Source: Micromonospora tarapacensis
GTDB taxonomy: Bacteria; Actinomycetota; Actinomycetes; Mycobacteriales; Micromonosporaceae
Direction: 5' to 3'
Assembly: GCF_019697375.1 (NCBI RefSeq)
Contig: NZ_JAHCDI010000003.1
Location: 310,001 to 374,000, forward strand
DNA length: 64,000 nucleotides
The number at the start of each line of letters is the position of its first letter. Positions within the stretch are counted from its first letter, which is position 1. Both the position numbers and the translations under genes were made by a program. Under the pieces are notes generated by a model that did no database searches, was not told the DNA's origin, and was given only the letters and a program-made list of their open reading frames with translations. Below are positions 49,012 through 64,000 of this stretch, piece by piece.

Positions 49012-49143
49012 GCGCGGGAGGGTAGCCGTTTTCCAAACCGGACCGATGGTCGGTGAACCAGCGGCGGTCCCGCGCCGTCATGCGCGTGCCGCACCCGTAC
49101 GAGGACCTGGTGCGTCCCGTCTGTCAGGCCGATGGAGGGCTAC

Positions 49144-50373
49144 ATGATTCTGGGTACTGGCTCGCGTTCGATCCGCCGTTTCTGGACGAGCACGAGAGCT
49201 GCGGTGGTCGTCGTGTCGGTGCTCGCTGCCGGCCTGATCGTGGTGATGTCGAGCAGCTCCGACGCCGTCGCCGGTGAGCGGGTGAGGTTCGTCAACGCCA
49301 CCGGCGAGACGTTGTGGATCGGCTCGGGCGAGAGTGGCGACGGCTCGCGCAGGATCGGCGGCATGCCGGTCCTGCGACCGGGCGAGTCGAAGAGCATCGT
49401 CATTCCGGACGGCGGTCAGCCGGGCCACTGGCGCGGCAGGTTCTTCGCCCGGCAACGGTGCAGCGGAGACCCCGGCAGCACTTTCAAGTGCCTGGTGGGC
49501 GACTGTGGTCCCCACCTGGACCACTGCGTGCGGGGCGCGGAGCCGGTGAGCCTGGCCGAGTTCAACTTCGACCAGAACAACCCGGCGGCTCCCTGGTACA
49601 ACGTCAGCTATGTCGACGCGCTGTCGACGACGATCACGATCGAGGCGCCCGGTGCGCCGAACCCGGCCCTCGCCGGAAGCTGCGTCCGGACGGACTGCTC
49701 CGGTGGGCAGATGCTCGCCGCCTGCCCCGAGGCCCATGCCGTGCGTGATCCCCGGCGTGGCGACCGGATAAATTGCGTCAACCCCAACCGGGACGCGGAG
49801 AGCGCCTACACCGCCGCGCTGCGTCCCTTCGGCCCGCGGGCCTACCTGTGGTCGACCCACGACAAGGTCCCGGGCAACCAGACCGTCTTCAACTGCCCCG
49901 GGTGTGCGGACTTCACTGTCACCTTCCGCAACGGGGGTGCCTCGGCGGCCCCGCCCGCCCAGAGGCGCGACACGCGGGACTCATCCGAGTTCGCGCTGCG
50001 GGGATATGCCGACAAGTGCGTCGACGTGCCGGGTGGTGTCTCGGCCGACGGTGCACAGTTGCAGCTCTGGCGGTGCAACGGCACCCCGGCCCAGCGGTTC
50101 AAGCGCGGCCCGAACGGCTCCCTGGTGGCGCTCGGCAAGTGCATGGATGTCGCGTGGGCAAAACGGGACAACGGGACGAAGGTGCAGCTCGCGCACTGTA
50201 GTGGTGGGCCGGCGCAGATCTGGGTGGCCGAGCGGGGGATGCTGCGCAACCCGCACTCGGGCAAGTGCGTCGACGTGCGCGACTGGAACGCTGGCGACGG
50301 TGCCCCGTTGCAGATCTGGGAGTGCAATCCCGCGGGACAGGCCAACCAGACCTGGCGGGCGATCGGTCGCTGA
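49144..50373 (+). CDS. secreted thaumatin-like protein fused to a ricin-type lectin
   Basis: A 409-residue exported protein. A signal peptide or anchor (AVVVVSVLAAGLIVVMSSSS) precedes a thaumatin-like domain (about 45-260): RVRFVNATGETLWIGSGESG, CLVGDCGPHLDHCVRGAEPV, SLAEFNFDQNN, YNVSYVDALSTTITIEAP, then Cys-rich CVRTDCSGGQMLAACPEAHA and FNCPGCADFTVTF. The C-terminal beta-trefoil has three Q/x/W repeats: LQLWRCNGTPAQRF, VQLAHCSGGPAQIW and LQIWECNPAGQ. Thaumatin-like proteins bind or cleave beta-glucans in plants and fungi. ATG 49144 follows GGAGG by 6 nt. Confidence 0.8.
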   Translation: MILGTGSRSIRRFWTSTRAAVVVVSVLAAGLIVVMSSSSDAVAGERVRFVNATGETLWIGSGESGDGSRRIGGMPVLRPGESKSIVIPDGGQPGHWRGRFFARQRCSGDPGSTFKCLVGDCGPHLDHCVRGAEPVSLAEFNFDQNNPAAPWYNVSYVDALSTTITIEAPGAPNPALAGSCVRTDCSGGQMLAACPEAHAVRDPRRGDRINCVNPNRDAESAYTAALRPFGPRAYLWSTHDKVPGNQTVFNCPGCADFTVTFRNGGASAAPPAQRRDTRDSSEFALRGYADKCVDVPGGVSADGAQLQLWRCNGTPAQRFKRGPNGSLVALGKCMDVAWAKRDNGTKVQLAHCSGGPAQIWVAERGMLRNPHSGKCVDVRDWNAGDGAPLQIWECNPAGQANQTWRAIGR

Positions 50374-50482: not shown

Positions 50483-51978
50483 ATGGAGTCAGGGTGCGGC
50501 CGGCGGACGGCGAGGCTCTGGTGGACGCTGCCGTTGCTGCTGGCGGTCCTGTCCGTGCCGCTCGTTCCGGCGGCTGCGGCCAGCGCGGCGCCCGAGGAGA
50601 CCGGCAGGTACTACGTCGTCGGGCCGCCGGTCGACGGCCAGCGGGAGTACCTGTACAGCATCGCCCTGGTCACCCTCGGCAACGGTAACCGGTTCCGCGA
50701 GATCATCGATCTGAACCGGGGCCGCAGGCAGCCCGACGGCGCGACCTTCACCGACGGCGTCGAGCTGGGACCTGGCTGGATCCTGGTGCTGCCCACCGAC
50801 GCCGATGGGCCGGGGGTGCGGACCGGCGCGCTTCCGGCGATCGGGCCGCCGACGCCCCGGCCGACGCCTCCGCGGTCGCCGAGCGCGTCGGCGCCGCCCC
50901 GAGCGCGTCGGCGCCGCCCCGAGCACGGCGGCGCCGTCGCCGAGCGCCACGACCCGGCCGCCGCCGTCGAGCGCGGACCCCTCGCCTCCGGCGGCCGGCC
51001 CGGTGACCCCGGCCGTCGCCGCCCCGGGCCGGAGTCTTCCGGGCTGGCGGGTCTCAGTCCCAACCTGATCCGGATCGGGGCGGGCGGGCTGGCGGTGCTC
51101 CTGGCCGTCGTGGCGCTCCTGGTGCTGCCCCGGCGGATGCACCAGAGGCGCTCGGTGGGTCTCGACGACGGACCGTGGCCGCCGGAGCGGCATCACACAC
51201 CGACGCCGGCGGAGCTTGAGGCCGACGTGCCGGCCACCCCGTCGACCTCTCCACCTGCGCCGGCAGATGACCTACCGCCGGCGCCACCCGGGTCGCCGGT
51301 GTCGCGGCCGCCGGCCGACTGGCCACCCTGGCCGACGCCACGCCGACGCCGGTACCTCCTCAGCCGATGGCAAGGGACGAGCCGGCCGACGCGGCGGGCG
51401 ACGGCGGTCCGGCGGAAGCCGGTGACCTGCCCCGGCCGCAGCTGCCGGTCGACGGCGACGTGCCGTACGTCCGGGCCGAGGTGCGCACCGGGGCCGGCCC
51501 GGTCCTGGTGCGGCTGATCGGCGTCACGACTGGTCCGAGCACGCCCGCCTACAGCTGGCTCGCCGACGACGAACCCGCGCCCGCGGCAGCGGTACCGCTG
51601 GTGCTGGGCCGCAGGGGGGGATGGCGGCTTCAGGTCGACCTCGGTCGGGCCCCCGACGTGTTCACCCTGGTCGGCGACCTGGACGAGTGCCGCCGGCTGG
51701 CTGCCGAGTACGCCCGGCAGTTGCACGCGGGCGGGATCGGGGTCGGCGTCGTCGGTGACGCACTCGGCGGCGAGACCATCGACGGTTGCCGTCGCCTGAC
51801 CGGGCTCCCCGAGCCGGGCGAGATGAACTCCGACCGGTATGTCGTGATCACCGCGGGCCTGCCGCAGGGGACCGGGATACGCGGGCTCGCCGCCGCCACC
51901 GGCGGTCGCTGCATACCGGTGGTGATCGGTCCGGTGCCGGACGGCCGGTGGTCGGCTCAGCTCGGCGCGGAGGGCTGA
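50483..51978 (+). CDS. LysM-like single-pass membrane protein, frame interrupted four times
   Basis: Signal peptide (LWWTLPLLLAVLSVPLVPAA), a LysM-like domain (RYYVVGPPVDGQREYLYSIA, IIDLNRGRRQPDGATF, GWILVLPTDADGPGV), a Pro/Ser linker, a membrane helix (LAVLLAVVALLVLPRR) and a cytoplasmic domain (VPYVRAEVRTGAGPVLVRLI, WRLQVDLGRAPDVFTLVGDL, IPVVIGPVPDGRW). Frame breaks lie at C runs 50897-50900 and 50917-50920, at G run 51026-51028 and near 51287-51300. Adding one base at each gives exactly 500 codons. The LysM-like part is paralogous to that of the mycosin-like protein. ATG 50483 has GAAGGG 6 nt upstream. Its stop overlaps the convergent gene by 22 nt. Confidence 0.65.
50881..50920 (+). repeat. 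20-nt tandem duplication in the Pro/Ser linker
   Basis: Two identical 20-nt copies (GAGCGCGTCGGCGCCGCCCC). With five instead of four C at each end the unit would be 21 nt and encode PSASAPP twice in frame, so both copies probably lost one base. Confidence 0.7.
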
Positions 51979-53921
51979 AGCCGAGCCATGACGGTCGGCA
52001 GCGGTCCCTTCGGCAGTTGCGGCACGCGCTGCCAGGCGCCTGCGTCAGCGCGGTACGCACGGCGTACCCGGACCCGTGGGTAGGAGCGGCTGCCGAGGAT
52101 CAGGTCCACCTGCGCGGTGCGCAGCGGTTCCGCCTGGGTGCGGACCCGGGTGAGCGGGGCGAGCAGGTCGGCCGTTGCCGTCACGTCGATCGTCCGCGCC
52201 CTCGGCACCTGGAGTTCCAGCAGCAGCCGTCCCGGCTGGACCGGTGGCCGACGGCGGTGGAGTCGCAGCCAGTTGCGCGGCAGTCGGAGGCGCTCCGCAG
52301 GCAGCAGGGCGTACGCCCGACGGGTGCCGACGGTGGGCCAGCGCCGCACCTCGTTGGGCAGGCCGGCGATCGAGCGGGCCGGGGAGGCGCAGCGGATCCG
52401 CAACGATCCGGCTTCGCACGTGCCGGCCGAGGTCAGGTTGCCGGAGCGGTCCAGATCGAAGGTGTCCACCGCGAAGATCCGGTCCAGGCGCGCCGCCGGC
52501 AGAAGATACGCCTCGCGGAGGCCACGCAGGTGCTGTAGGCGGGCGGGCAGGTGCGCCCGGAGCAACTCCATCGGGATCGCACCGCCCGGCTCGACCCGCA
52601 CCCGCAGCACTCGACTGCCCTCCGGCATCGACCTGGGATCCAGGAACGCGAGCAGGAAGAGTTCGGCGCTGGGCATGCCGTCGGCGATCGACCGGGCGTC
52701 GACCGGCGAGACGACGAACGCCTCGAACTGCTCGGCGTTGACCTGCTGCGCCGCGGACAGCCACGCCGGGCCGTACGCCGTCCGGCGGTTCTCGGCGGCC
52801 AGCTCGGGACGGGGGAGCGGCGTTTCTGGAACGGCGGCCGTAGGCTCATCCGCCTCCGCCGGTCCGAAGTCCGGCGGCGCGGCGGCCGGCGGGGACGTGG
52901 TGCCTGCCGTGGTGCCTGCCGTGATGCTGACGCTGGCGGACACCGGCACCAGCAGGCCGGCGGGGGTAGCGCGTAGCGCCGGCGGGCCGAGGGCGAACCG
53001 GGGCCGGTGGGCCCGCCACTCGACGGGCTTCCCCGCGTGGTCGAGTGCGCGTAGGTCCTGCCGCCCGTCCACCAGCTCCGCGCTGCCACCCGGCGGCGGT
53101 GTCCAGATGGTGGCGCCGGTCGTCTCGGCCAACTCCTGCGCCTGCGCGCGTAGCCGCTGCTGCTCGTCCGGGTCGGACGGCCAGGTGAGCCAGAGCCGCA
53201 GTTCGCTGCCGTATAGCGGCAGGTCGCCCAGCAGGGCGGCGAGCTGGCCGCCGTCGTACACCCGCTGGGTTCCGCCGTAGTCGCCGACCAGGAAGCCGCC
53301 GGCCCGTGCGGTGACCGCGATGGTCACCAGCCCGTCCGACGCCGAGCCGAGCCGGTGCGCGGTGGCCCGCCGGGTGACGAAGTCGGCCCGGGTGGCCAGG
53401 ACGACCCCGCCGTGCAGGGGCAGGCCCACCACGCCGGTGCGGGGACGGACCAGGCCGTGGTCCACGGTGAACCAGCCGGGCAGCGGGGTGGCCAGCTCCG
53501 GCGGCTGGATCACGAGCCAGTCGCTGACCCGCCGGGTGGTCCGGTCCAGCGGCACCGCGTGCAGCGGCTCGTTCCCGATCTGCCGGTCGTGGTGCCGGAC
53601 CACCGCGCCGTCGGGGCTCACCAGGACGTCGTGGGCGAGTAATCCGGCGACCTCGCTGAACAGCTCCGTGTGCCGGGCGCCGTCGGCGGCCAGGATCCGT
53701 ACATCGTTCGCGGCCTCGCCGGAACGCCGGACCAGGTCGGTGATGTCCGATGCGGTCAACGGCCGGTCGGGCTTGCGCGGCACGACCAGCCCACCGCGTT
53801 CACCGGGCTCCAGCCAGAGATCGAACAGTCCGGTGATCCGCCGGTGCCGGCTGAGATCGAAGCGGCGGGTCGCCGGCGGCTCGTCGATGATCGCGTCTGT
53901 CGTCGCGGGCATGGCGTTCAT
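51957..53921 (-). CDS. 654-residue protein of unknown function
   Basis: No signal peptide or membrane segment is seen, so it is probably cytosolic. The N-terminal part (about 1-330) has LVVPRKPDRPLTASDITDLV, VLVSPDGAVVRHHDRQI, GTQRVYDGGQLAALLGDLPL and LRLWLTWPSDPDEQQRLRAQ, ending ETTGATIWTPPPGGSAE. A Pro/Ala-rich linker (about 330-390) leads to a C-terminal part (RRTAYGPAWLSAAQQVNAEQ, LFLLAFLDPRSMPEGSRVLR). I recognise no family. Layout and neighbours (divergent mycosin-like gene, convergent LysM-like gene) suggest a cytosolic component or substrate of the same envelope system. Confidence 0.7.
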   Translation of the reverse strand: MNAMPATTDAIIDEPPATRRFDLSRHRRITGLFDLWLEPGERGGLVVPRKPDRPLTASDITDLVRRSGEAANDVRILAADGARHTELFSEVAGLLAHDVLVSPDGAVVRHHDRQIGNEPLHAVPLDRTTRRVSDWLVIQPPELATPLPGWFTVDHGLVRPRTGVVGLPLHGGVVLATRADFVTRRATAHRLGSASDGLVTIAVTARAGGFLVGDYGGTQRVYDGGQLAALLGDLPLYGSELRLWLTWPSDPDEQQRLRAQAQELAETTGATIWTPPPGGSAELVDGRQDLRALDHAGKPVEWRAHRPRFALGPPALRATPAGLLVPVSASVSITAGTTAGTTSPPAAAPPDFGPAEADEPTAAVPETPLPRPELAAENRRTAYGPAWLSAAQQVNAEQFEAFVVSPVDARSIADGMPSAELFLLAFLDPRSMPEGSRVLRVRVEPGGAIPMELLRAHLPARLQHLRGLREAYLLPAARLDRIFAVDTFDLDRSGNLTSAGTCEAGSLRIRCASPARSIAGLPNEVRRWPTVGTRRAYALLPAERLRLPRNWLRLHRRRPPVQPGRLLLELQVPRARTIDVTATADLLAPLTRVRTQAEPLRTAQVDLILGSRSYPRVRVRRAYRADAGAWQRVPQLPKGPLPTVMARLQPSAPS

Positions 53922-54164
53922 GCGCTCTCACCACCGTCCATTCGGCTCGACGTTCACGGGTGGCCTCGCTCGACCTGTGCCCCTGGGCGCCCGGCCTCCG
54001 CCTGGGCCGCATGCCGGGCCTTACGCCCTCCACGACGAGGATCCTCGGCGACTGGTTCAGCTCAACTCGAACGTTTCTGCCGATCGGATTGAACGTAATC
54101 GGCGCTGATCCGCTGTAGAGGGTGTCGGCCGGTCGGCCGGCGCCTACTGAAGGAGGACGGATCA

Positions 54165-55646
54165 GTGCTGGCGAACGTTGGACGCCTGCTGGCGGGTGTG
54201 GCGGTTGCCTGCTGCCTGGTCGTGGCGATGGCCGGCACCTCGGCGGCCCAGAAGGCACCGCCGGACCCGCAGGCCTACGTCAAGTACTACGTCGTCGCCG
54301 CCGCGTACCAGGAGCAGCCGGAGACCCTCGCCGCGATCGCGATCCGGTTTCTCGGCAGCGGCGAGCGATCCGCGGAGATCTACAACCTGAACGCCGGACG
54401 GGTGCAGCCGGACGGGGCGAGCCTGACCGACCCGTCCCGACTCAATCGCGGCTGGTACCTGGTGCTGCCGTGGGACGCTGCCGGCGAGGGGGTGAAGTAC
54501 GGCCAGATTCCGTCCGGCCCGAAACCGACCACCCGGGCTCCCGCGCCCACCGGCACCGCGAAGCCGCCCGCCAGCCCCAGCCCCAGCCCGAGCGCCAGCC
54601 CCAGCGGCAGCCCGTCGCCGACCGGCACGAAGGCTCCCGGTTGTACCGCCGTCGCCGCGTCGAGCAGCCGTTCGGACTGGGCGCAGCTGCGGATGGCGGC
54701 CGACGGCGCATGGGACCTCAGCCGTGGCAACGGCGTCATGGTGGCGGTGGTCGACTCCGGGGTCGACGGCGACCTCGAACAGCTCAACGGCCGCATCGCG
54801 GTCGGTGCCGACGTCACCGTCGGCAACGGACGCGGTGACACCGACTGTCACGGGACCGGCACGGCGATGGCGAGCATCATCGCCGCGAACGCCAGCGGCG
54901 AGCGGACCCCGGCCGGTCTCGCACCGGACGCCACGATCCTGCCGGTACGGATGGTGGGCGCGTCGGGCAAGAGCCGGGCCACGGACGCGGCGAACGCCAT
55001 CGAGGTGGCGGTGAGCGCGGGTGCCTCGGTGGTGGCCCTCGGCTCGCACGTGGATCTGTCCGCCCCGGCGGTCGTCACCTCGCTGACCACCGCGCTCAAC
55101 CACGACGTGCTGGTGGTGGCGGGTGCGCCGAGCAAGCCCGTCACGCTCCCGTCGCCCGGTGAGCCCGACGCCACCGGCGCTCTGCTGCTTGTCGGTGGGG
55201 TCGGCGCAGACAACCAGTTCGTCGAGGAGTACCAGCCGACCACCGTGGAGGTGGTCGCGCCCGGCGCGGACGTGACCAGCGTGGGGCAGGGTGATGCCGG
55301 CCCGCTGAGCTACACGGGCACCCGCTTCGCCGTCGCCTTCGCCGCCGGACAGGCGGCGCTCGTCCGGGCGGCCTATCCCGAGCTGAATGCCGTCCAGGTC
55401 GAGCAGCGGATCCAGGACACCGCCGACGCGTTGGGCGGCGACGCTCCCGACGAGAGGTACGGCGCTGGCATGATCAATCCAGCCGCGTCCGTCGCCCGGC
55501 CGGTCGAGGACGAGCGGCCGGTCGGGGTGGGCACGGACAACGGTGGTGGTGGCGGTGGCATGGGTGCGCTCGTCCTCCTCGGCCTGGCACTCATCGGTGG
55601 CGGTGCCTTCCTGACGTTGCAGCTCCGCCGCCGCGCCCTCGGCTGA
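54165..55646 (+). CDS. mycosin-like S8 protein with LysM-like domain, predicted inactive
   Basis: A 493-residue protein: signal peptide, LysM-like domain (about 43-115: KYYVVAAAYQEQPETLAAIA, IYNLNAGRVQPDGASL, GWYLVLPWDAAGEGVKYGQI), Pro/Ser linker, S8 domain (about 165-445) and a C-terminal membrane helix (GALVLLGLALIGGGAFLTLQ) with basic tail. Mycosins of type VII secretion have the same end layout. Asp197 (VVDSGVD) and His229 (DCHGTGTA) are present, but the Ser position is Arg387 (GTRFAVAFAAG) and the oxyanion Asn position is Ala321 (VVAGAP). It is therefore probably a pseudoprotease. GTG 54165 has AGGAGG upstream. Confidence 0.82.
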   Translation: MLANVGRLLAGVAVACCLVVAMAGTSAAQKAPPDPQAYVKYYVVAAAYQEQPETLAAIAIRFLGSGERSAEIYNLNAGRVQPDGASLTDPSRLNRGWYLVLPWDAAGEGVKYGQIPSGPKPTTRAPAPTGTAKPPASPSPSPSASPSGSPSPTGTKAPGCTAVAASSSRSDWAQLRMAADGAWDLSRGNGVMVAVVDSGVDGDLEQLNGRIAVGADVTVGNGRGDTDCHGTGTAMASIIAANASGERTPAGLAPDATILPVRMVGASGKSRATDAANAIEVAVSAGASVVALGSHVDLSAPAVVTSLTTALNHDVLVVAGAPSKPVTLPSPGEPDATGALLLVGGVGADNQFVEEYQPTTVEVVAPGADVTSVGQGDAGPLSYTGTRFAVAFAAGQAALVRAAYPELNAVQVEQRIQDTADALGGDAPDERYGAGMINPAASVARPVEDERPVGVGTDNGGGGGGMGALVLLGLALIGGGAFLTLQLRRRALG

Positions 55647-55711: not shown

Positions 55712-57343
55712 TTACCGCTTCCGCCAGGTCTGCTCGGCGTTCCCGACGTAGATCCACAGCTCGAGTGGCTTGTCGGCGCTCTTGGCGTTCATGTCGACGT
55801 CGACGGACTTGCCGTTGAGCTTGCTGATGATGCCGCCCTTGGCGTTGAACTGCCACGACTGGGCCGGGTTGCCGCTACAGACGGCCACCTGGATCGCGGT
55901 GCCGTCCGTGGAGCCGGCCCAGGCGATGTCCATGCAGAGCCCACGGGCGCGGATCGTGCCGTCCGTGCGGAAGTCCCACCACTGGGCCGGATCCTCCGTG
56001 CAGGGCTTCAGCAACAGCCGGGTCCCGTCACCGGTCTTGCCGGAGCTGACGCATCTTCCGCTACGCGGGTGGAAGATCATCTTCATGCCGGCCGGCCGGA
56101 CCGGTTTCGGCGCGGCGGTGGTCTGCTTCGGCGCGGCGGTGGTCGGCTCCGGCTCGACCGGAACCAGCTCGATGATCGACTGCCTCGGCGTCGGCTTGGT
56201 GGTGGGTGGGTCGGCCGACGCGCTCGGCTGCGGCTCGGGCGCCGAGGCCGACGGTGACGCCGAGGGCTCGGCCGGTGCGGGCCGGCCGAGTCGGGTGTCG
56301 AGCAGGTAGAGGTCGGTGAGAGCCTTCACCGCCCGCAGAAACGTCTCGGTCGGTTGGTCGAGGGTGCCGCCGGCCTGTCGCACGGCGGTGGGACCGTTGC
56401 GGTAGGCGGCGAGCGCCAGCAGGTACGGGTCGCCGTCGAGGTTGGACAGCTCGGTGACCAGGCTGCACATCGCCTCGCCGACGGTCGGGATCGCCACCGT
56501 CGGGTCCCAGGCCGAGCCATCCGCTGGCCCGTACGCCCGCCACACCTCGGGGAGGAACTGCGCGATGCCCCGTTGCCCGGTCGGGCCGAGCAGGTTGGCG
56601 TCGAACCCGGAGAGCGCGTTCAGTTGGGCGGCGACCATCGGTGGTGTCACCTGATCGCAGACCGATCCGGCCCGCACGACGAGCGGGACGTACTCGGCGG
56701 GCACGCCCTTCGCGTCGTTGGCCGGCGGGGGCGTCGGCGTGGGGACGCCGTTCCCGCCGAACTGCCTCAACCGCTCGTAGTACCCGGCGTAGCCGCTGAC
56801 CAGGTCGACGTACCCGATGGCATCGGCGGGCACCCCCTTGGCCTCGGTTACCGCGGGCAGGCCGGCATGGAACGCGGCCACCGAGAGACGCCAGTGGTCA
56901 CCCGAGATGCCGGCCAGCCGAAGTTGGCCGCTGAAGTCGCACATCTGGTGGGCGAGCGCCAGGATGCTCGCCGAGATGTCCGAGCGTCGCGCGTCCGGCC
57001 ACGGCTTCCACGCCCTCCAGTCGTCATCGTCGAGGCCGGCGATGCCCCGGCCACCGGAGGCGGTCTGCCGCGCCCGGTTGTTCAGACCCGACTCGGCCAT
57101 GAGCTGCCCGGCGATTCTCGCCGGATCGAGCACCGGGCAGGAGCGGGCGGCGGCGGCGATGGCCGTCATCTGCTTCTGGGTGACCGGATCGCCGACCACC
57201 GTGTCGTCGCGAGCCGAGGCGACACTCCAGTTGATGGTTGCCAGGACGGCGGAGAGGACGGCCAGTGCGGCCAGGCCGGCCGCCAGCGCTTTGCGCGGCG
57301 TACGGCCGAAGGTGAACCTGGTGGATCGGAGATCGGTTGTCAC
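55712..57343 (-). CDS. double transglycosylase-like protein with ricin lectin domain
   Basis: A 543-residue exported protein. An N-terminal anchor or signal (LAAGLAALAVLSAVLATINW) is followed by two lysozyme-like SLT domains. The first (about 60-190) has AGQLMAESGLNNRARQT with catalytic-type Glu84. The second (about 220-360) has AAQLNALSGFDANLLGPTGQ, where the Glu is Leu244, and so is probably inactive. A Pro/Ser/Thr linker leads to a C-terminal ricin trefoil (LLLKPCTEDPAQWW, IQVAVCSGNPAQSW, YVGNAEQTWRKR). It would open or bind peptidoglycan, as VirB1 does. GTG 57343 fits AGGG 9-10 nt upstream; ATG 57352 is the alternative. Confidence 0.78.
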   Translation of the reverse strand: MTTDLRSTRFTFGRTPRKALAAGLAALAVLSAVLATINWSVASARDDTVVGDPVTQKQMTAIAAAARSCPVLDPARIAGQLMAESGLNNRARQTASGGRGIAGLDDDDWRAWKPWPDARRSDISASILALAHQMCDFSGQLRLAGISGDHWRLSVAAFHAGLPAVTEAKGVPADAIGYVDLVSGYAGYYERLRQFGGNGVPTPTPPPANDAKGVPAEYVPLVVRAGSVCDQVTPPMVAAQLNALSGFDANLLGPTGQRGIAQFLPEVWRAYGPADGSAWDPTVAIPTVGEAMCSLVTELSNLDGDPYLLALAAYRNGPTAVRQAGGTLDQPTETFLRAVKALTDLYLLDTRLGRPAPAEPSASPSASAPEPQPSASADPPTTKPTPRQSIIELVPVEPEPTTAAPKQTTAAPKPVRPAGMKMIFHPRSGRCVSSGKTGDGTRLLLKPCTEDPAQWWDFRTDGTIRARGLCMDIAWAGSTDGTAIQVAVCSGNPAQSWQFNAKGGIISKLNGKSVDVDMNAKSADKPLELWIYVGNAEQTWRKR

Positions 57344-57736
57344 GGGGGCCATCCCTTTCGGCGTGGCGACACTGTCGTGACGAATTTCCAGCGCCCGGCG
57401 TTCAGATCCGGCATGGATTTCTCTCGGGAATGTGCCGCACAGACTGAACCGGCTGGGCCGGGGAGCCGTTGATCGGGCAGCGCGCGGCTCCGGCAGGTTC
57501 GCGGTCTGGCCGGAGCGAAACCGTCGACAGGGAAAGAGCATGACGTTGAACAGGGAAGACTTGTGCGGTGCGGCGTCCGTCGGTGCGGTCGCGGCCGGCC
57601 AGGTGCACACTCGACCTACGGGCGATCTGCGGGTCGTTTGCAGTGCGGCTATGCTGCCTGTGAGGGCCGTGGAAACGGGGGCGCGTCACGTTCACCCGGC
57701 CCGCAGGGTGCGATCCGTCCGTCAGGGAGGCGGTCT
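57344..57736. other. divergent regulatory region, no gene seen
   Basis: 393 nt between the transglycosylase-like gene and the sigma-factor gene. It holds several overlapping GC hairpins (about 57450-57530) and a possible -10 TATGCT at 57650-57655, 81 nt before the sigma start. I found no convincing ECF-type -35/-10 pair and no coding frame of its own. Confidence 0.4.
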
Positions 57737-58306
57737 GTGTCGGCGGTGCCCAACGAGTCGGCTGGACCCTGTCTGTCGGACAGCGCCGCCTTCGATTCGT
57801 CCGCCGCCGCGACTCTGCTGAGGCAGGTCGTCGAGGAATATCATCGGCCCCTGCACCGCTTCCTCACCCGCCTGCTGCTCGGGCAGCAGGATCTTGCCGA
57901 GGACCTGGTACAGGAGACGTTCCTACGCGCGTGGCGGCACGCGGAAAAGCTCGCCGCCGACCCGTCGAAGATCGCGCCCTGGCTCTACACGGTCGCCCGG
58001 CACGTGGCGATCGACGCGATGCGGGCCCGGCAGGCCCGGCCGCCGGAGGTCAGCCTGCCGGATCTCAACCGGATGCCCACCTCGGACGACGAGATGGATC
58101 GTGTGGTGAACGTCCACGCGGTGCGGCTCGCGCTGACGATGATCAGCCCGGAACACCGTGAGGTGCTCCACGAGATGTACTACCGGGGCGCCTCCGTAGC
58201 CGAGGCGGCGGTGCGACTGGGGATACCCGAGGGTACGGTGAAGTCCAGAGCCTTCTACGCGGTGCGCGCACTACACGCCGCGCTCGGCTCTACCGAAGCG
58301 TCCTGA
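57737..58306 (+). CDS. ECF-type RNA polymerase sigma factor
   Basis: A 189-residue sigma-70 factor of the extracytoplasmic-function class. Region 2: YHRPLHRFLTRLLLGQQDLA, then EDLVQETFLRAWRH and WLYTVARHVAIDAMRARQAR. Region 4: LTMISPEHREVLHEMYYRGA, SVAEAAVRLGIPEGTVKSRA. GTG 57737 has GGGAGG 6 nt upstream. An anti-sigma gene follows after 70 nt. It probably directs transcription of the flanking envelope and secretion genes, an inference from position. Confidence 0.93.
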   Translation: MSAVPNESAGPCLSDSAAFDSSAAATLLRQVVEEYHRPLHRFLTRLLLGQQDLAEDLVQETFLRAWRHAEKLAADPSKIAPWLYTVARHVAIDAMRARQARPPEVSLPDLNRMPTSDDEMDRVVNVHAVRLALTMISPEHREVLHEMYYRGASVAEAAVRLGIPEGTVKSRAFYAVRALHAALGSTEAS

Positions 58307-58376
58307 TGTCAAGGTCGCCCCGGACCCTGGAACCAGGAAACACCGCGTGGTGCCGACCCGTTGAGGAGAGGGCTGG

Positions 58377-59276
58377 ATGCGCGCAGGCGGGGATCACACC
58401 ACGGCCGAGCGGGAGAGGCTGACTCTCTACCTGCTGGGGGCCCTGGAGGACGCTGAGCGCGAGTCCTTCGAAGATCATCTCGCCGGCTGCTGGCACTGCC
58501 TCGACGAGGCAGCCGCTATCGGCCCCTCGGTCGGCGGACTGGCCGGGCTGGGTGACGCGGACTGGTCACCTCCCACCGCCGAGACGCCGACGCCCGCGCC
58601 ACCCGCCGCCGAGAATCCGGTGCTGTCCGCGTCCGTTTCGGCGGCGACGGACGCCTCCGACGCGGCGGCGGCCACCGACGGCCGCCCGGCGCGGGACGGC
58701 AATGATGATCTCGGTCGCGCTTCGGGGCCCGACGGGGCGGCCGGGACGCGGGAGCGCGACGCCGGTGACGCGGAGACCGGTCCGGTCCGCGGGGCCGGCA
58801 GCCGCCCGGCGGGTAGACGTCCGTCCGTCGGGCGTCCGCCGTCGACGGCCGGTTCGCGGCGCCGGCGGCAGGCCCGGTGGGTCGGTGCCGCGGCGGTCGT
58901 CCTGGCGTTGGCCGGCGGTGCGGTGGCCGTCAACGAATGGGCCGCCGGCCCCGACGCGGTGCTGACCGCCTCGGGGGAGGCGCCCGGCTACGGTGCCAGC
59001 CTCTCCGTCGCCATCACGGTCGGCGACGGGGGTAGCGCCACCATCCGGATCACCGCCACCGGCCTGCGGCAGGGCCTCCGGTACCGCCTGTTCGCCGTGA
59101 CCCGCGACGGTGCGACGCACGTGGTGCGCGACTGGACCGCCTCGTCCGGGCCGCAGGAGGTGGCCGGCGAGACCTCCCTGCCCATTGACGAGCTGTCGTT
59201 CATCACCGTCGGGCTGGTCGACGGCTCCGCGATCGTGACCGCGCCGATCGCCCAGGATCCGACTCCGCCGCGCTGA
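58377..59276 (+). CDS. zinc-binding anti-sigma factor, membrane-anchored
   Basis: A 299-residue protein. The N-terminal ZAS domain has the HX3CX2C motif as HLAGCWHC (His34, Cys38, Cys41) after LTLYLLGALEDAERESFEDH. A disordered Ala/Asp/Pro-rich stretch of about 90 residues leads to one membrane helix (WVGAAAVVLALAGGAVAVNE) and an outer beta-rich domain (GYGASLSVAITVGDGGSATI, LRYRLFAVTRDGATHVV). It would hold the sigma factor at the membrane until an envelope signal releases it. Confidence 0.9.
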   Translation: MRAGGDHTTAERERLTLYLLGALEDAERESFEDHLAGCWHCLDEAAAIGPSVGGLAGLGDADWSPPTAETPTPAPPAAENPVLSASVSAATDASDAAAATDGRPARDGNDDLGRASGPDGAAGTRERDAGDAETGPVRGAGSRPAGRRPSVGRPPSTAGSRRRRQARWVGAAAVVLALAGGAVAVNEWAAGPDAVLTASGEAPGYGASLSVAITVGDGGSATIRITATGLRQGLRYRLFAVTRDGATHVVRDWTASSGPQEVAGETSLPIDELSFITVGLVDGSAIVTAPIAQDPTPPR

Positions 59277-59616
59277 GCGCAGGCCCCAGCCCCGCACCGG
59301 ACTCGTCGACGATCCCGACGATCGGCGGATCGCAGGCCTGGGCCGGAGGAGCCGGCCAGGGCCCGAGTGGCGGCAGTCAGCAGCGCAAGGGCAGGAAGTA
59401 GCGATCGACGCGATTCTCGCCACGGCAGGGTAGACCCGGATCGCCTGCTCGCGGGCTGACCCGGTGGATCGCTCGGTGCCCCGCCGCGAGCGGGTCGAGG
59501 AAAAATCCCGAACTCGTGCTGAACCGAGCGGCCGGCCGCGCCGTAAAGCGGCCGTCACCGGTGCCGGTTGCGCGCCCGGTGACCGCGAAGGCGAGCGGCG
59601 AAGGGAGGCGAGGCGG
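59277..59616. other. 340-nt intergenic region before the secretion genes
   Basis: No gene seen. It probably holds the promoter of the downstream operon, but I could not pick a -35/-10 pair with confidence. The short A-run GAAAAATCCC at about 59501-59510 is the most AT-rich point. Confidence 0.35.
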
Positions 59617-60153
59617 ATGGGCAACGGGTCCGTGGCGTTGCGGCGAAACGCGAGATCAGGGCTGGACGAGCCACCCGCCGTGCGGGCGTACGACGACGGC
59701 CCGGCCTGGCGGCGCGACAGCCTCTCCGACGAGGGCATCGGGTGGATCGGCGCTCACGGTGGTGCCGGCGCGACCACGCTGACCCGCTTGCTGGGCGGCA
59801 CCGACATCGGCTGCCGCTGGCCGGATCCGGCCCTCGCCGAGCCCGCTCAGGTCATGGTCGTCGGGCGGACGAACCTGGAAGGGCTGCGGGCGGTCTCCCG
59901 CGCGCTGCACGCGATGCGTGAGGGCCGGCACCCGGCCGGGATGCGGTTGCTCGGCGTGGTGCTGATCGCCGACGCGCCCGGCCGGCTTCCGCCGCCGCTG
60001 CTCGGCCGGATCCGGCTGCTGCGGTCGATCGCACCGGTACACCGGCTGCCGTGGATCCCGTCATACCGGGTGGGCGGGGAGCCGAAGCGACCGCCGGGGC
60101 AACTGTCCCGCCTGTCCACGGTGATCTCCCCCGAGCGACGGAGGCAGCCGTGA
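59617..60153 (+). CDS. MinD/ParA-like P-loop protein (DUF6668-like)
   Basis: A 178-residue cytosolic protein. The modified P-loop WIGAHGGAGATTLTRLLGG (about residues 42-60) resembles the KGGxGKTT motif of MinD/ParA ATPases but lacks the usual Lys before TT. MVVGRTNLEGLRAVSRALHA and LLGVVLIADAPGRLPPPLLG match later core strands. It is shorter than true MinD and may bind without hydrolysing nucleotide. ATG 59617 has GGGAGG upstream. It overlaps the next gene (GTGA) and opens the T4SS-like operon. Confidence 0.75.
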   Translation: MGNGSVALRRNARSGLDEPPAVRAYDDGPAWRRDSLSDEGIGWIGAHGGAGATTLTRLLGGTDIGCRWPDPALAEPAQVMVVGRTNLEGLRAVSRALHAMREGRHPAGMRLLGVVLIADAPGRLPPPLLGRIRLLRSIAPVHRLPWIPSYRVGGEPKRPPGQLSRLSTVISPERRRQP

Positions 60154-60833
60154 CCAGGGCTGTCCCGCGCGCAGCGACCGTCGTAGCCCTGCTGGGGATG
60201 GGCCTGCTGGCGCCCTCGGCGGCGCTGGCGGCCGAGGACACCTACACCGTGAAGATCCATGGCGGGGGTGCGGTCTACAACTACACCCTCTGCCTGAAGA
60301 CCACCACCACCATGGCGCGACCGCGCGGCAACGGCAGCGACCGAATTTGCAGCGGGAAGAGGAACTCGACCAACGGGTCCTACGACCTGTCCGCCCCGTA
60401 CACGTCGGGCGACACGGTGAAGATGGACATCGAGATGCACACCGGTCTCACCGGGGAGTCGGTCACCAAGGACAACGTCGAGATCACCGGGGCGACCAGC
60501 TGCACGATCTCGGGCCTGGTGCACGCCGGGAAGTTCGAGTGTGACACTCCGATCAACAGCATCAAGTTCTCGCCGCCGGCGATCGAGGCATACACGATCG
60601 ACACCAACGAGGACCGGGCGGTCTCGAAACTGCTCGACTTCATGGCGTGGCTGGTGAGCGCCGCCGCTGTGGCCGGCCTGCTGATCACCGCCGCGACGCT
60701 GGCGTCGCAGGTGCGTCGCGGTGCCCTCGAAGAGCGGACCGAGTACGTGAAACACCTCGCCTTCGTCCTCACAGCGTGCCTGCTGGCGACCACTGCCGGC
60801 CCGATCATCGCGTGGCTCGACATTACCGGGTGA
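60150..60833 (+). CDS. exported protein with VirB2-like C-terminal two-helix segment
   Basis: A 227-residue protein. Signal peptide (ATVVALLGMGLLAPSAALAA), an outer domain of about 120 residues with Cys at YTLCLKTTT, RICSGK, TSCTISG and FECDTP, then two membrane helices (LLDFMAWLVSAAAVAGLLIT and LAFVLTACLLATTAGPIIAW) joined by a basic loop. The two-helix part is paralogous to the next protein and resembles VirB2/TrbC pilins of type IV secretion. GTG 60150 overlaps the preceding stop. Confidence 0.75.
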   Translation: MTRAVPRAATVVALLGMGLLAPSAALAAEDTYTVKIHGGGAVYNYTLCLKTTTTMARPRGNGSDRICSGKRNSTNGSYDLSAPYTSGDTVKMDIEMHTGLTGESVTKDNVEITGATSCTISGLVHAGKFECDTPINSIKFSPPAIEAYTIDTNEDRAVSKLLDFMAWLVSAAAVAGLLITAATLASQVRRGALEERTEYVKHLAFVLTACLLATTAGPIIAWLDITG

Positions 60834-60897
60834 CACCCGCCCGGGCCGGAGTCCGCCCGAGTGGAAGAACGACCGTCCTGACCTCGAAGGAGACACA

Positions 60898-61251
60898 ATG
60901 ATCCTCTCCGACATCTACTACCTGAGCGTGCTGCGGATTTCAGCGGTGCTCCAGGCACCCGCCTATCCCGAGCGCGCTGGCGTCCCGCAGCCCGAGACCG
61001 GTGGATCACTGCCGGAAGGACTCGCCGAGAAGGTCGAGCAGGCGCTGGGCCTCGTCGCGTGGATCGGGACGGCGGCTGGTGTCGTCGGTGTCCTGGCCAC
61101 CGGCGCGGTCATGGCCATCTCGCACAAGCGCGGCGAGAGTTCGGAGCACATGAGCCGCCTCGGCATGGTGCTGGGGGGCTGCATCCTGGTCGCCATGGCC
61201 GGGCCGATCGTCACCTGGCTGTTCGGCAGCGGAGGCGGGGGCACCAACTGA
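60898..61251 (+). CDS. VirB2/TrbC-like small membrane protein
   Basis: A 117-residue protein with two membrane helices (LGLVAWIGTAAGVVGVLATG and LGMVLGGCILVAMAGPIVTW) around a short basic loop (HKRGESSEH), ending in GSGGGGTN. Size and topology fit a T4SS pilin-like subunit, and the end AGPI.TW matches the preceding protein. The N-terminal part (ILSDIYYLSVLRISAVL) could be a weak signal sequence. The ATG has AAGGAG upstream. Confidence 0.75.
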   Translation: MILSDIYYLSVLRISAVLQAPAYPERAGVPQPETGGSLPEGLAEKVEQALGLVAWIGTAAGVVGVLATGAVMAISHKRGESSEHMSRLGMVLGGCILVAMAGPIVTWLFGSGGGGTN

Positions 61252-61303
61252 CCGCCCATCGACCGCGCTCCCGAGCGCTCGTCCGTCCAACAGGGTAGGT
61301 GCC

Positions 61304-62047
61304 ATGAGACCGAGATACGCATCCGGCGACGAGCCGGACGAGGAAAGGCCGTTCTGGCAGCACCGCCGCTGGCAGCTGTCGGCCGCCTTTCTCGCCCTCG
61401 CCCTCTGTACCGGCACGGTCGCGGCGCTCAGTGGTGGCCGCGACGCCAACTCCAGCGTGTCGGCCCCCGCCGGGCCGGTGATCGGCATGCTCGGCCCGGA
61501 CGGATCCCGGCCGCAGGACTGTCGCACCGACGACTCCGCGCAGCGGTTGCCGAGCGAGGCGCCACGGGACATCACCTGGCGACCGCTCAACGGGGCGCAG
61601 ACTCCGCTGTCCGCCTCGGCGGGGCCGCTGAAGACCACCGGGCCGCTGCTGTGGTGTTTCGCGCACACCCCGATGGGGGCGGTCATGGCGGCGCACACCA
61701 TCTCCCGCCAGATGAGTGGGCCTGACTGGCAGGCGGTCAGTGAGCAGCAACTCGTACCAGGTTTGGGGCGGGACTACTTCGACGCGATGCGTGCGTCGAT
61801 GCCGGAGACCGGGCCGGTGCAGACCGTCAACGCCCTGGCCGGATTTCTCGTGCTGAGGTACTCGCCGAGCACCGCCACCGTCCGGGTCCTGGTCCGGCAG
61901 GCGAACGTGCTCTACGTGTCCCTCGACTACATCGTCGACTGGAACGGTGTGGATTGGCAGCTCCGGCCGCTGAACTCCGGGGGCCTGTACAGCCGGGTCA
62001 ACCCCGTCGTCTCGCTCGTCGGCTTCGTGCTGTGGAACGAGGTGTGA
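61304..62047 (+). CDS. single-pass protein with VirB8-like outer domain
   Basis: A 247-residue protein: cytoplasmic N-terminus, one membrane helix (WQLSAAFLALALCTGTVAAL) and an outer domain of about 195 residues. The outer domain has FAHTPMGAVMAAHTISRQMS, TVNALAGFLVLRYSPSTATV and LYVSLDYIVDWNGVDWQLRP. Topology, length and the terminal strand pattern resemble VirB8/TcpC NTF2-like proteins of T4SS. Similarity is by topology more than by motif, so the assignment is moderate. It lies 1 nt before the VirB6-like gene. Confidence 0.68.
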   Translation: MRPRYASGDEPDEERPFWQHRRWQLSAAFLALALCTGTVAALSGGRDANSSVSAPAGPVIGMLGPDGSRPQDCRTDDSAQRLPSEAPRDITWRPLNGAQTPLSASAGPLKTTGPLLWCFAHTPMGAVMAAHTISRQMSGPDWQAVSEQQLVPGLGRDYFDAMRASMPETGPVQTVNALAGFLVLRYSPSTATVRVLVRQANVLYVSLDYIVDWNGVDWQLRPLNSGGLYSRVNPVVSLVGFVLWNEV

Positions 62048-62048
62048 C

Positions 62049-63354
62049 GTGGCAGAGTGCGCTACCGGTGACGCCGTCTACATCGGCACGGTCGGGCAGG
62101 TGGTCGGCTTCTTCGAGCGGGGCATCGACGGCATTCTCAGCGACATCGCCAGCGCCATCCTGGGTGCGGCGGTCGAACTCTTCGCCAACCTCGGCGACAT
62201 CCCCACGATCGGCGACGAGAGCCTCAACGACAGCATCCACCTTCAGACCGACTGGTTGGTCGTCACGATCGCGGTCGCCTCGCTGCTGGCGGCGGCCTTC
62301 CGGATGGCGCTGGAACGCAAGGGGCAGTCCCTCGTCGTGGCGCTGATGGGTCTGGTCCGCATGGTCCTCACCGTGTCGGCCGCCTGGTGGGTGGTCAACT
62401 GGCTCGCCAGCGAGGCGGACGCCTACACCGATCATCTCTACGAAGAGGGCATCAAGGCACAGCTCAAGCTGATCGCCAACTGCGGCACGGACGGCCTCAC
62501 CGCCTTCCTGCTGATCATCATCGGGCTGTTGCTGCTGATCGCCGGCTGTATCCACATCATCCTGATGTACATCCGGCTCGGCGTGATGGTGCTGCTCACC
62601 GGCACGCTGCCGTTGGCCGCCGCGGCCTCGATGTCCGAGTGGGGCGGGGGGTGGTGGCGCAAGCACATCGCCTGGATGGTCGCCTGGCTGGCATTCAAAC
62701 CGGTGGTCGGGCTGATCATGTATTCGGGTGCGGCCATGATCGGTGCCACCGACGACATGGAAGGCGCGGACAACGCCAAGCACTACAAGATCGCCGGCGC
62801 CGCCGTCCTGCTGATGGCCGCGGTCGCACTGCCCGCGCTGATGCGGCTGGTCGTGCCGGCAATGGCGAGCCTCGGCTCGCGCGACGGCGTCGGCGCGGGC
62901 GCCGCCGCCGGTGCCGCCGGCGCGGGAGCGGTGGCGAGTGGCGCCAAGAAGATCGCCGGCGGCGCGGCCTCGGCGGCCTCCGCCGGCAGGTCCCGGGGCC
63001 GAGCGGCGGCAGTTCGTCGCCGGGCGGCGCCTCGGGTGGCGGCCGGTCGGCCGGCGGCTCCGGGGCAGCCCATCCGGTAGCGGTTCCGGTAGCGGGTCCG
63101 GTGGTGGTTCCGGCGGGTCCGGTGGCGGTTCCGGCGGGTCCGGTGGTGGTTCCGGCGGTTCCGGCGGTTCCGGTGGCGGGTCGGGCAGCGGTGGGTCGAG
63201 ATCCGGGCAGATCGCCCGGGGTGCGGTCGGCGTCGCCGCCTCGACGGTCGGTGCCGCGGCCTCGGCGGTGCAGCTGGGCGCACGCGCCGTGACCAGCACC
63301 CACAAGCACGCCAGCAACATCGCCAGTGGAGCGCTGCCCGACAGACATGACTAG
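62049..63354 (+). CDS. VirB6/TrbL-like polytopic protein with Gly-Ser tail, frame interrupted twice
   Basis: About six membrane helices (residues 60-290), including LIIIGLLLLIAGCIHIILMY and GVMVLLTGTLPLAAAASMSE, and the loop WWRKHIAWMVAWLAFKPVVG typical of VirB6/TrbL pore proteins. The tail is Gly/Ser-rich and ends HKHASNIASGALPDRHD. The frame breaks at G runs 62995-62998 and 63062-63065. One added G at each gives RGPSGGSSSPGGASGGG and GSGGSPSGSGSG and exactly 436 codons. GTG 62049 starts 1 nt after the upstream stop. Confidence 0.78.
63080..63196 (+). repeat. Gly-Ser coding tandem repeat
   Basis: Imperfect repeats of GGTTCCGGCGGGTCCGGTGG-type units encode a (GGS)n linker in the VirB6-like tail. 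The tract is prone to slippage. Confidence 0.8.
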
Positions 63355-63456
63355 GGCCTGCGGCGAAGTCCCTGGCTGGCCTGCGGCGGGCTCAGGTTCA
63401 GCCGGAGACTTCGACACACGCCCTTGCTGAGGTCCGGGACAAGGAGAAGGCTCATC

Positions 63457-64000
63457 GTGAGTACGACAGCGGAATCCATGAAGACACCGACGTACGGCAA
63501 CTGGCGTCGCCCCCGCAAGGCGGGACTGGGCTCGCTGGGCCTGGTCGGGACCGTCGGCCTGTTCGGTGGGCTGGTGCTGGTCCTGATCTCCTCCCTGGTC
63601 TCCCTGAACGCGGCCGTGGTGGTAGGGCTTCCGTTCGCGGTGCTGCTGGCGCCGCTGGCGTTCCGCACCGCCGACGGTCGCAACGTCTACGACATGGCCG
63701 CCGTCCGGATCGGTTGGCTGCGCCGCAGGTCCAAGGGGCAGCATCTGTACGCCGCCGGGCCGCTGTCGACGCGCCCGGGTGGCCGGTTCCGCCCACCCGG
63801 GCTGCTGAGCCGCGTGGTCATGATGGAGGGACGCGACCCGTACGACCGCCCCTTCGGGGTGCTCTACCACCGCAACCGCAACCAGTACACCATCGTGCTC
63901 AGCTGCGAGCCGGACGGCGGTTCGCTCGTCGACCCCGACCAGGTCGACACCTGGGTGGCGCTCTGGGGTGAGTGGCTGTCCCGGTTGTCGCACGAGCCGG
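63457..64000 (+). CDS. SCO6880-family membrane protein (5' part only)
   Basis: The first 181 codons, open to the window edge. A cytoplasmic N-terminus (KTPTYGNWRRPRKAGLGSLG) leads to two membrane helices (LVGTVGLFGGLVLVLISSLV and AVVVGLPFAVLLAPLAFRTA), then a soluble part (YDMAAVRIGWLRRRSKGQHL, GVLYHRNRNQYTIVLSCEPD, VDTWVALWGEWLSRLSHEP). This is the layout of SCO6880-family proteins, encoded next to VirB4- and VirD4-like ATPases in Streptomyces. GTG 63457 has AAGGAGAAGG upstream. Confidence 0.8.
   Translation, partial: MSTTAESMKTPTYGNWRRPRKAGLGSLGLVGTVGLFGGLVLVLISSLVSLNAAVVVGLPFAVLLAPLAFRTADGRNVYDMAAVRIGWLRRRSKGQHLYAAGPLSTRPGGRFRPPGLLSRVVMMEGRDPYDRPFGVLYHRNRNQYTIVLSCEPDGGSLVDPDQVDTWVALWGEWLSRLSHEP

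Follow-up and report, generated by a model that had tools for sequence, protein, structure and literature searches.

Does the type IV secretion system (T4SS)-like operon on the chromosome of the soil bacterium Micromonospora tarapacensis move DNA, or has it been turned to the export of proteins? The operon lies at the right-hand end of a 64,000-nucleotide stretch of a 6.9 Mb genome (positions 310,001–374,000 of contig NZ_JAHCDI010000003.1; hereafter the window, whose numbering is continued past its end where needed). An original prediction made from the window alone had described the operon together with an extracytoplasmic function (ECF) sigma factor and its anti-sigma factor, and considered an export or envelope role as likely as conjugation. 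What we find is a T4SS near which no DNA-transfer enzyme was detected, standing beside changeable proteins and under what appears to be a common switch, and this combination suggests protein export. In our judgement the chances are evenly balanced that a plasmid-type T4SS has here been turned into an ECF-switched protein exporter.

All of the genes named in the original prediction are present, with protein-coding codon structure by codon scoring, and those of the T4SS operon lie on the forward strand. The first encodes a DUF6668/MinD-like protein (59617–60153; PF20373, E 2e-4, under the cut-off). It had been described as a P-loop protein, although the P-loop is degenerate, with its lysine absent in all 21 family members that match the search pattern, the other 50 of 71 falling outside that pattern. 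Both of the proposed VirB2-like genes follow. The first (60150–60833; helices at residues 160–186 and 202–223) has no Pfam match but clusters with the second, and it is more than the two-helix protein first described, carrying an additional outer domain of ∼130 residues N-terminal to both helices; the second (60898–61251) matches PF04956 (TrbC/VirB2) at 24 bits against a cut-off of 27.9. The VirB8-like single-pass protein with a putative NTF2-like outer domain is encoded at 61304–62047, again with coding codon structure, and the polytopic VirB6/TrbL-like protein at 62049–63080, its conserved C-terminal segment lying in a second frame that extends to 63354. Profile searches gave no family match for the VirB6-like protein, and this polytopic protein is identified by its operon position. 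The SCO6880-family gene begins at 63424 or 63478 and ends at 64956, beyond the end of the window at 64000; the full protein scores 507.5 bits with NF042935, for which the cut-off is 60.

The machine had been expected to continue to the right with ATPase genes, and it does so directly after SCO6880. The next 6 kb encode a VirB4-like ATPase (64953–66749, +; VirB4-type models at E 1.7e-8 and 1.7e-6, far under the equivalog cut-offs), a VirD4/TraG protein (66746–68509, +; PF12696 at 108.2 bits against a cut-off of 22 and PF02534 at 70.6 against 20.1) and, as the last gene of the operon, a membrane-anchored GH19 lytic enzyme (68476–69942, +; 148 bits). The SCO6880/ATPase and ATPase/VirD4 junctions are 4-nt overlaps. 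Spacing is largely as tight as first described (overlapping or 1–66 nt), except that the gap between the anti-sigma and DUF6668 genes is 187–340 nt. A VirD4 ATPase, a VirB4 ATPase and a VirB1-like lytic enzyme are all present, and by gene content the locus almost certainly encodes a complete T4SS of the Gram-positive type. PADLOC reported no system, only one weak ATPase match.

VirB4 looks to be divided between two genes. The SCO6880 model also matches two of the genome's own canonical VirB4 proteins (model positions 309–476, E 3e-14, and 313–477, E 7e-8). In profile comparisons, residues 111–185 of VirB4 are matched by the end of SCO6880 and residues 201–310 by the next gene, albeit with weak scores (13.9 bits at best, and 4.6 bits). 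From the model matches and the consecutive alignment, SCO6880 therefore looks like a VirB3-like membrane hairpin joined to the N-domain of VirB4, with the ATPase half apparently encoded by the gene that follows; because the profile-comparison scores are weak, this reading leans on the SCO6880-model matches and on gene order. In 72 of 83 family members, the first GK[ST] motif found in the ATPase half reads MPGLGKS. A PDB sequence search with the ATPase gave no match, and one with the SCO6880 profile gave two weak matches only, both to designed proteins. Elsewhere the genome has two canonical VirB4 loci (L022 and L023) and two more SCO6880-type loci (L072 and L073, on contig C4 at 1.48 Mb and 4.17 Mb); two relaxases and a DUF4913 gene are near the one at 4.17–4.21 Mb.

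Judged by gene content and order, the T4SS of the window and the transfer modules carried by actinobacterial plasmids are homologous. Of 72,556 plasmid records, 442 contain a relative of SCO6880; no relative was found in phage records at E 1e-5. Four annotated Streptomyces and Arthrobacter plasmids have three hypothetical genes at the VirB2, VirB8 and VirB6 places (labels assigned by gene order), followed by SCO6880, ATPase, VirD4 and DUF4913, and then a relaxase (4/4), MobC (3/4) and a zeta toxin (3/4), with DUF6668 annotated in three; a fifth plasmid (L185), mostly hypothetical in its annotation, was labelled by likeness. The modules of S. canus NZ_CP107988 and Streptomyces NZ_CP109498 resemble the window in running from DUF6668 through three hypotheticals, SCO6880, the ATPase and TraM/VirD4 to DUF4913. 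However, these plasmids carry a relaxase, MobC and a zeta toxin, none of which was found at the window locus, whereas the latter has an ECF sigma, an anti-sigma, a mycosin, lectins and cargo genes. We note that zeta toxin genes recur beside the relaxase and MobC on the SCO6880 plasmids (L098, L182, L184 and, by likeness, L185), and that relatives of them are found in some chromosomal loci (L168, L171, L176, L177, L179 and L181).

The original prediction saw no relaxase, integrase or attachment site. PF03432, the one relaxase family searched for, has no member on the contig of the window, and five plasmid relaxases used as queries found no homolog in 94 kb around the locus or in 80 related loci; for PF03432 the absence of a relaxase from the locus is firm. 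No integrase or attachment site was noticed in the gene lists and in Pfam scans of selected neighbours, where no aimed profile search was made. A tRNA-Ser called by ARAGORN (63612–63695) was rejected as an attachment site; it is inside the SCO6880 reading frame and is probably a false call.

Could the locus then be a conjugative element that has decayed or been parasitised, its plasmid-derived transfer module having been taken up by the chromosome and either relying on a relaxase in trans or being defunct? Plasmids do bear homologous operons with a relaxase, and the genome encodes three PF03432 relaxases on contig C4 that could act in trans. The unit is present in more than one chromosomal context. 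Furthermore, the C-terminal part of VirB6 that is joined in relatives is in a second frame here (62911–63354, after a glycine-rich repeat), which is either a real change or a sequencing slip. Against such an element, the order from DUF6668 to VirD4 is intact in 17 of 18 fetched loci of the genus at 72–96% SCO6880 identity, the 18th being cut by a contig end; no homolog of the five plasmid relaxases was found in the 80 related loci; and a dedicated sigma factor and promoters are retained. We consider a decayed or parasitised element unlikely.

The T4SS locus is, by comparison with its relatives, part of a chromosomal island of ∼24 kb at about 49.0–72.7 kb. SCO6880 is found at 72–100% identity in 20 of 101 genomes of the genus (next best 43%). 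The sigma factor, at a threshold of at least 68% identity, is in 19 of the 101 (next-best sigma 55%), and the protease domain of the mycosin is likewise in 19 (identity of at least 66%; next best 59%, in G047). The sigma and mycosin genomes are the same 19 and are all among the 20 with an orthologous SCO6880, although these genomes are related and the counts are not independent events. The exception, G083, has the machine without the island sigma, in an assembly of 580 contigs. Among the 18 fetched loci, the protease or its neighbour, the SLT/lectin gene, the sigma and the anti-sigma precede the machine in 15; of the other three, two are cut by contig ends and one is that of G083. In five of the 18, a lysin and DUF4913 are to the left of DUF6668. 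Both flanks are shared with the window genome in three of ten relatives (G041, G007 and G078) and not in seven. The left edge is at 49.03–49.22 kb in six relatives (49028–49033 in the nearest) and at 50.5–50.6 kb in four more distant ones, and the right edge is variable, reaching 74.8 kb (G036) or 75.6 kb (G003) and less in others. These differing flanks and edges suggest that the unit moved, or was lost, in one piece.

This distribution bears on a second alternative, that the machine is a T4SS-like membrane complex serving the development of hyphae or spores, perhaps by transport of DNA or protein inside the mycelium, and having no effectors. It would then be like cmdABCDEF (SCO4126–4131) of Streptomyces coelicolor, a cluster taken as homologous from its published description. 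According to the available text of the cmd study, CmdB is called a VirB4-like membrane ATPase and its lysines are needed; CmdB, CmdC and CmdD resemble SCO6878, SCO6880 and SCO6881; both cmdABCDEF and SCO6871–6884 are chromosomal, like the locus of the window; and transfer of an SLP2-derived plasmid is unaffected in the cmd mutant (PMC2782261). Deletion of cmd genes gives sporulation and chromosome segregation defects, with abnormal branching and septation (PMC2782261), a phenotype that speaks for development and against export. We infer that cmdA to cmdF may correspond to VirD4, VirB4, SCO6880, VirB6, VirB8 and VirB2, which would likely give the same gene order. However, the island is in only 20 of the 101 genomes and is therefore no general developmental gene set. 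It has sigma-linked lysins and variable cargo, whereas the text available for cmd mentions neither sigma/anti-sigma genes nor cargo, and SCO6878 or SCO6881 nulls are described there as having no such phenotype (PMC2782261). A developmental machine also seems to us an improbable account of the island.

The evidence for a common switch comes from the upstream regions. When the regions upstream of different island genes were compared for common pentamer-spacer-tetramer pairs, TGAAC-N17-CGTC ranked first, and we take it to be an ECF-type promoter. In its strict form (TGAAC-N16..18-CGTY within 260 nt upstream; motif sites of the window are given in brackets) it precedes the lectin gene (49054–49079, +) in 10/10 genomes, the 654-aa gene (54035–54059, −) in 10/11, the divergent lytic/lectin gene (57379–57404, −) in 15/16 and a receiver gene in 6/6, as compared to 8 of 375 other genes that served as controls. 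At the T4SS operon (59520–59544, +) the strict form is present in 6/16, TGAAC-N16..18-CGT in 13/16 and the looser GAAC-N15..19-CGT in 15/16; controls have the last two in 18/375 and 47/375. TGAAC-N16..18-CGT also precedes the cargo family of the window in 4/4 genomes, and the motif precedes nine of ten listed cargo genes of the genus, two of the nine sites being inside the called start. No motif was found before the mycosin, DUF4913, response regulator or kinase genes of the genus set. TGAACC-N16-CGT has 66 matches in the 6.9 Mb genome, of which five are in the 24 kb island, where 0.23 are expected (Poisson 4e-6). A further match (57445–57469, +), 268 nt ahead of the start called for sigma, may weakly hint at autoregulation.

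Having been found on the genus island genes, the motif was examined (300 nt upstream and 60 nt inside) in a wider set of 81 loci, that is, 80 relatives and the window's own, with 163 further relatives left out. Protein families were built from the collected loci, and 70 of the 81 hold all six core families. Non-core genes adjacent to DUF4913 carry the motif in 35 of 59 cases, compared with 71 of 381 others (by family, 20/35 and 26/153). Lysins carry it in 75/112 and lectins in 9/12, and SCO6880, the ATPase, VirD4 and VirB6 have it in none or one. In nine plasmid loci, counted by hand, it stands before 11 of the 12 genes called as lysins or lectins. The original prediction had called the sigma the machine's own, and its co-occurrence in 19 of 20 machine-bearing genomes and none of the 81 others, together with the common motifs, bears this out: an own ECF sigma with a shared regulon is well supported in the genus, and a promoter of the T4SS operon's own in the wider set is less well supported. 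Presumably the island sigma reads the TGAAC-N16/17-CGT motif. A third alternative is an ECF envelope-stress regulon that serves to remodel the wall through lysins and lectins, in which the T4SS is only a passenger and the cargo genes encode ordinary cytosolic proteins. The strength of the motif before lysins and lectins and its persistence in plasmid loci without obvious cargo would suit this, but the motif is also found ahead of unrelated cargo genes and, in the genus, of the T4SS operon, and we regard this as the least probable of the alternatives.

What might the machine export? Relatives of the island carry unrelated genes at two spots, the anti-sigma/DUF6668 gap and the position downstream of VirD4 beside DUF4913. 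In the subfamily, the proteins beside DUF4913 are hydrophilic and lack a signal sequence, and many end in a basic tail. At the second spot, to the right of the window, the genome has DUF4913 (70049–70489, −; 90.6 bits) and a gene for a 267-aa candidate cargo protein without a Pfam match (70486–71289, −). At the first, a short remnant encoding SGGSQQRKGRK and a stop (59366–59401, +) reads as a basic tail and resembles the end of the cargo protein at the same spot in G099, a sign of cargo turnover. We defined cargo by position alone, giving 61 genes (36 families) and 417 other non-core genes in the 81 loci. The last 25 residues have a median net charge of 4 in cargo and 1 in the others (by family, p 7e-4); the last two residues include K or R in 42/61 and 153/417 (by family, 24/36 and 64/174, p 9e-4); and an N-terminal hydrophobic segment is found in 3/61 and 105/417. 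Export by way of these basic tails has, in our view, about an even chance of being correct. The genus list includes three mutually homologous proteins (G008, G049 and G012) and one without a basic tail (G003). Neither the cargo protein of the window genome nor six typed relatives had a Pfam match over the cut-off, and a cargo motif, HEVGGH, was dropped as an HExxH zincin since its E and final H are separated by three residues.

Basic-tail cargo beside DUF4913 was rarely called in the plasmid loci of the subfamily, where our simple gene caller missed some annotated genes, and no plasmid relative of the cargo protein of the window genome was found. Four of the five plasmid relaxases end in arginine, although with a net charge of −1 to 2 over the last 25 residues they are not clearly basic. 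DUF4913 itself was followed outside the genus through the 40 best-ranked of the matches listed, which come from 32 of 51 matching genomes among 296 in the class; it is called in 38 of the 40 loci, and T4SS core genes are within 14 kb in 32. SCO6880 is in 25 of the 40, four at 69–77% identity and 21 at 26–43%. Loci near-identical to earlier ones (three, all in the 69–77% group, the fourth adding no gene), relaxases and neighbours homologous to earlier cargo were dropped before the DUF4913-adjacent genes were counted. By its neighbourhoods DUF4913 goes with these machines generally and is a T4SS-associated domain. A predicted model with a predicted local distance difference test (pLDDT) score of 87 has no convincing PDB match.

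If the island is an ECF-switched exporter, it could work as follows. An envelope signal would cause the membrane anti-sigma to release the ECF sigma, and transcription of the T4SS operon and of the lysin, lectin and cargo genes would then start from the common TGAAC-N16/17-CGT promoter. Hydrophilic cargo would be recruited through its basic C-terminal tails by VirD4, perhaps assisted by a DUF4913 adaptor, and the machine would export it to a neighbouring cell, to the outside or to the cell's own wall. More broadly, Gram-positive actinobacteria (Micromonospora, Phytohabitans, Streptomyces and their kin) may have a family of chromosomal T4SSs dedicated to protein export. These would have arisen from the conjugation machines of plasmids when polymorphic effectors took the place of the relaxase cassette, and would combine a split VirB4, DUF4913 as the adaptor for substrates, a basic tail at the C terminus for export and a single ECF-sigma promoter serving machine, wall-piercing enzymes and effectors together. 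We put the likelihood of this wider proposal at somewhat under one half.

Besides the relaxases on C4, the VirB6 frame and the cmd phenotype, several observations weigh against an ECF-switched exporter. Just 2 of 16 genomes have the motif within 260 nt before the sigma gene. In the 81 loci it precedes only 25 of 69 T4SS operons, and in the nine plasmid loci one of six called DUF6668 genes. The tail pattern was noticed before its test, on overlapping data, and basic ends are common anyway (35/126 control genes). We scanned 31 downstream proteins, namely 30 of 41 basic-tail family representatives and one homolog of the window cargo, the 11 others being dropped as flanking-like. These gave 13 Pfam families at E 0.05 with one member each, among which only the zeta toxin is a toxin family; at least three proteins matched housekeeping enzymes (an amidase, a FolD-type enzyme and a glycosyltransferase), so that part of this set consists of housekeeping genes from the flanks. 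Beyond the subfamily, genes next to DUF4913 have the motif in 0/46 cases as compared to 5/196 and show no excess of K/R ends (19/46 and 84/196), the only shifts being weak ones (p 0.066 for charge and p 0.019 for disorder). Because of this outcome we limit the basic tail and the motif, as far as tested, to traits of the window's subfamily.

The remaining genes lie on both sides of the machine. At the left are a secreted thaumatin and ricin-B-lectin protein (49204–50373, +; PF00314 78.8 bits, PF00652 83 bits), a hypothetical conserved in the island (51367–51978, +; no Pfam match) and a 654-aa protein without a Pfam or NCBIfam match (51957–53921, −). A membrane-anchored mycosin-like S8 protease follows (54165–55646, +; PF00082 85.3 bits, transmembrane-like segment 463–488), and then the VirB1-like transglycosylase that had been placed divergent from the sigma (55712–57352, −), which is present with a ricin-B lectin domain (PF00652 71.8) and a weak SLT match (PF01464, 20.8 bits, just under the cut-off of 21.3). 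Both regulators are also as predicted: the ECF sigma at 57737–58306 by codon score, in a frame open from 57563 (+; PF04542 69.1 bits), and a zinc-binding anti-sigma with a transmembrane helix and an outer domain at 58377–59276 (+; zf-HC2, PF13490, 25.2 bits against a cut-off of 22.2; transmembrane-like segment 166–187). Beyond the cargo gene are a second ECF sigma (71533–72132) and, further on, two response-regulator genes and a histidine kinase.

The mycosin scores 178.9 bits with TIGR03921, under the curated cut-off of 278.75, and neither the mycosin nor the EccE model of the type VII secretion system (T7SS) is matched at its cut-off. The N-terminal 192-aa piece of SCO6880 inside the window (63424–63999) matches the EccE model TIGR03923 at 27.4 bits (cut-off 108, E 1.4e-6), although the model is absent from the match list of the full-length protein. 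With the island mycosin, this may point to a link between T4SS and T7SS.

Among the matches listed, as judged by title and start of abstract, no literature on this type of locus was found beyond PMC2782261 and PMC6585502, the latter with the word cmdABCDEF once, most subscription papers being outside the coverage. An exporter role would explain the orphan proteins beside DUF4913 and would let cmdABCDEF be read as a T4SS. The island comprises a defined machine, a predicted switch and a candidate substrate list in hosts that are harmless and can be cultured, and these make the question of effector T4SSs in Gram-positive bacteria directly testable.

Several known systems can be compared. The bacteria-killing X-T4SS of the Xanthomonadales is a diderm machine, with a folded C-terminal signal domain shared by its substrates and with immunity genes beside the effectors; none of these features was noticed at the island, where no search was aimed at them. 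Like the proposed exporter it is a protein-delivering T4SS, in its case one that injects several antibacterial proteins (PMC6536674, PMC7286519). In Gram-positive bacteria, dedicated effector T4SSs are called a long-standing open question in the accessible part of a 2025 review, which gives the 89K T4SS of Streptococcus suis, with its reported secretion of SspA-1, as apparently the first (PMC12857230). That system is a candidate counterpart to the machine of the window; however, it lies on a pathogenicity island in another phylum, and no common regulon of variable cargo is described for it in that part of the review (PMC12857230). Conjugative relatives are also known, with 17 putative T4SS-type integrative and conjugative elements given for 275 actinobacterial genomes in the text available (PMC3218068). 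Mycobacterial pRAW-type plasmids, as outlined in the review, combine a T4SS with a T7SS (PMC12857230). The window likewise has a T4SS beside a T7SS-type gene, but unlike pRAW it has the mycosin-like protease only, no other T7SS gene being noticed adjacent to it and no T7SS profile search of the genome having been made.

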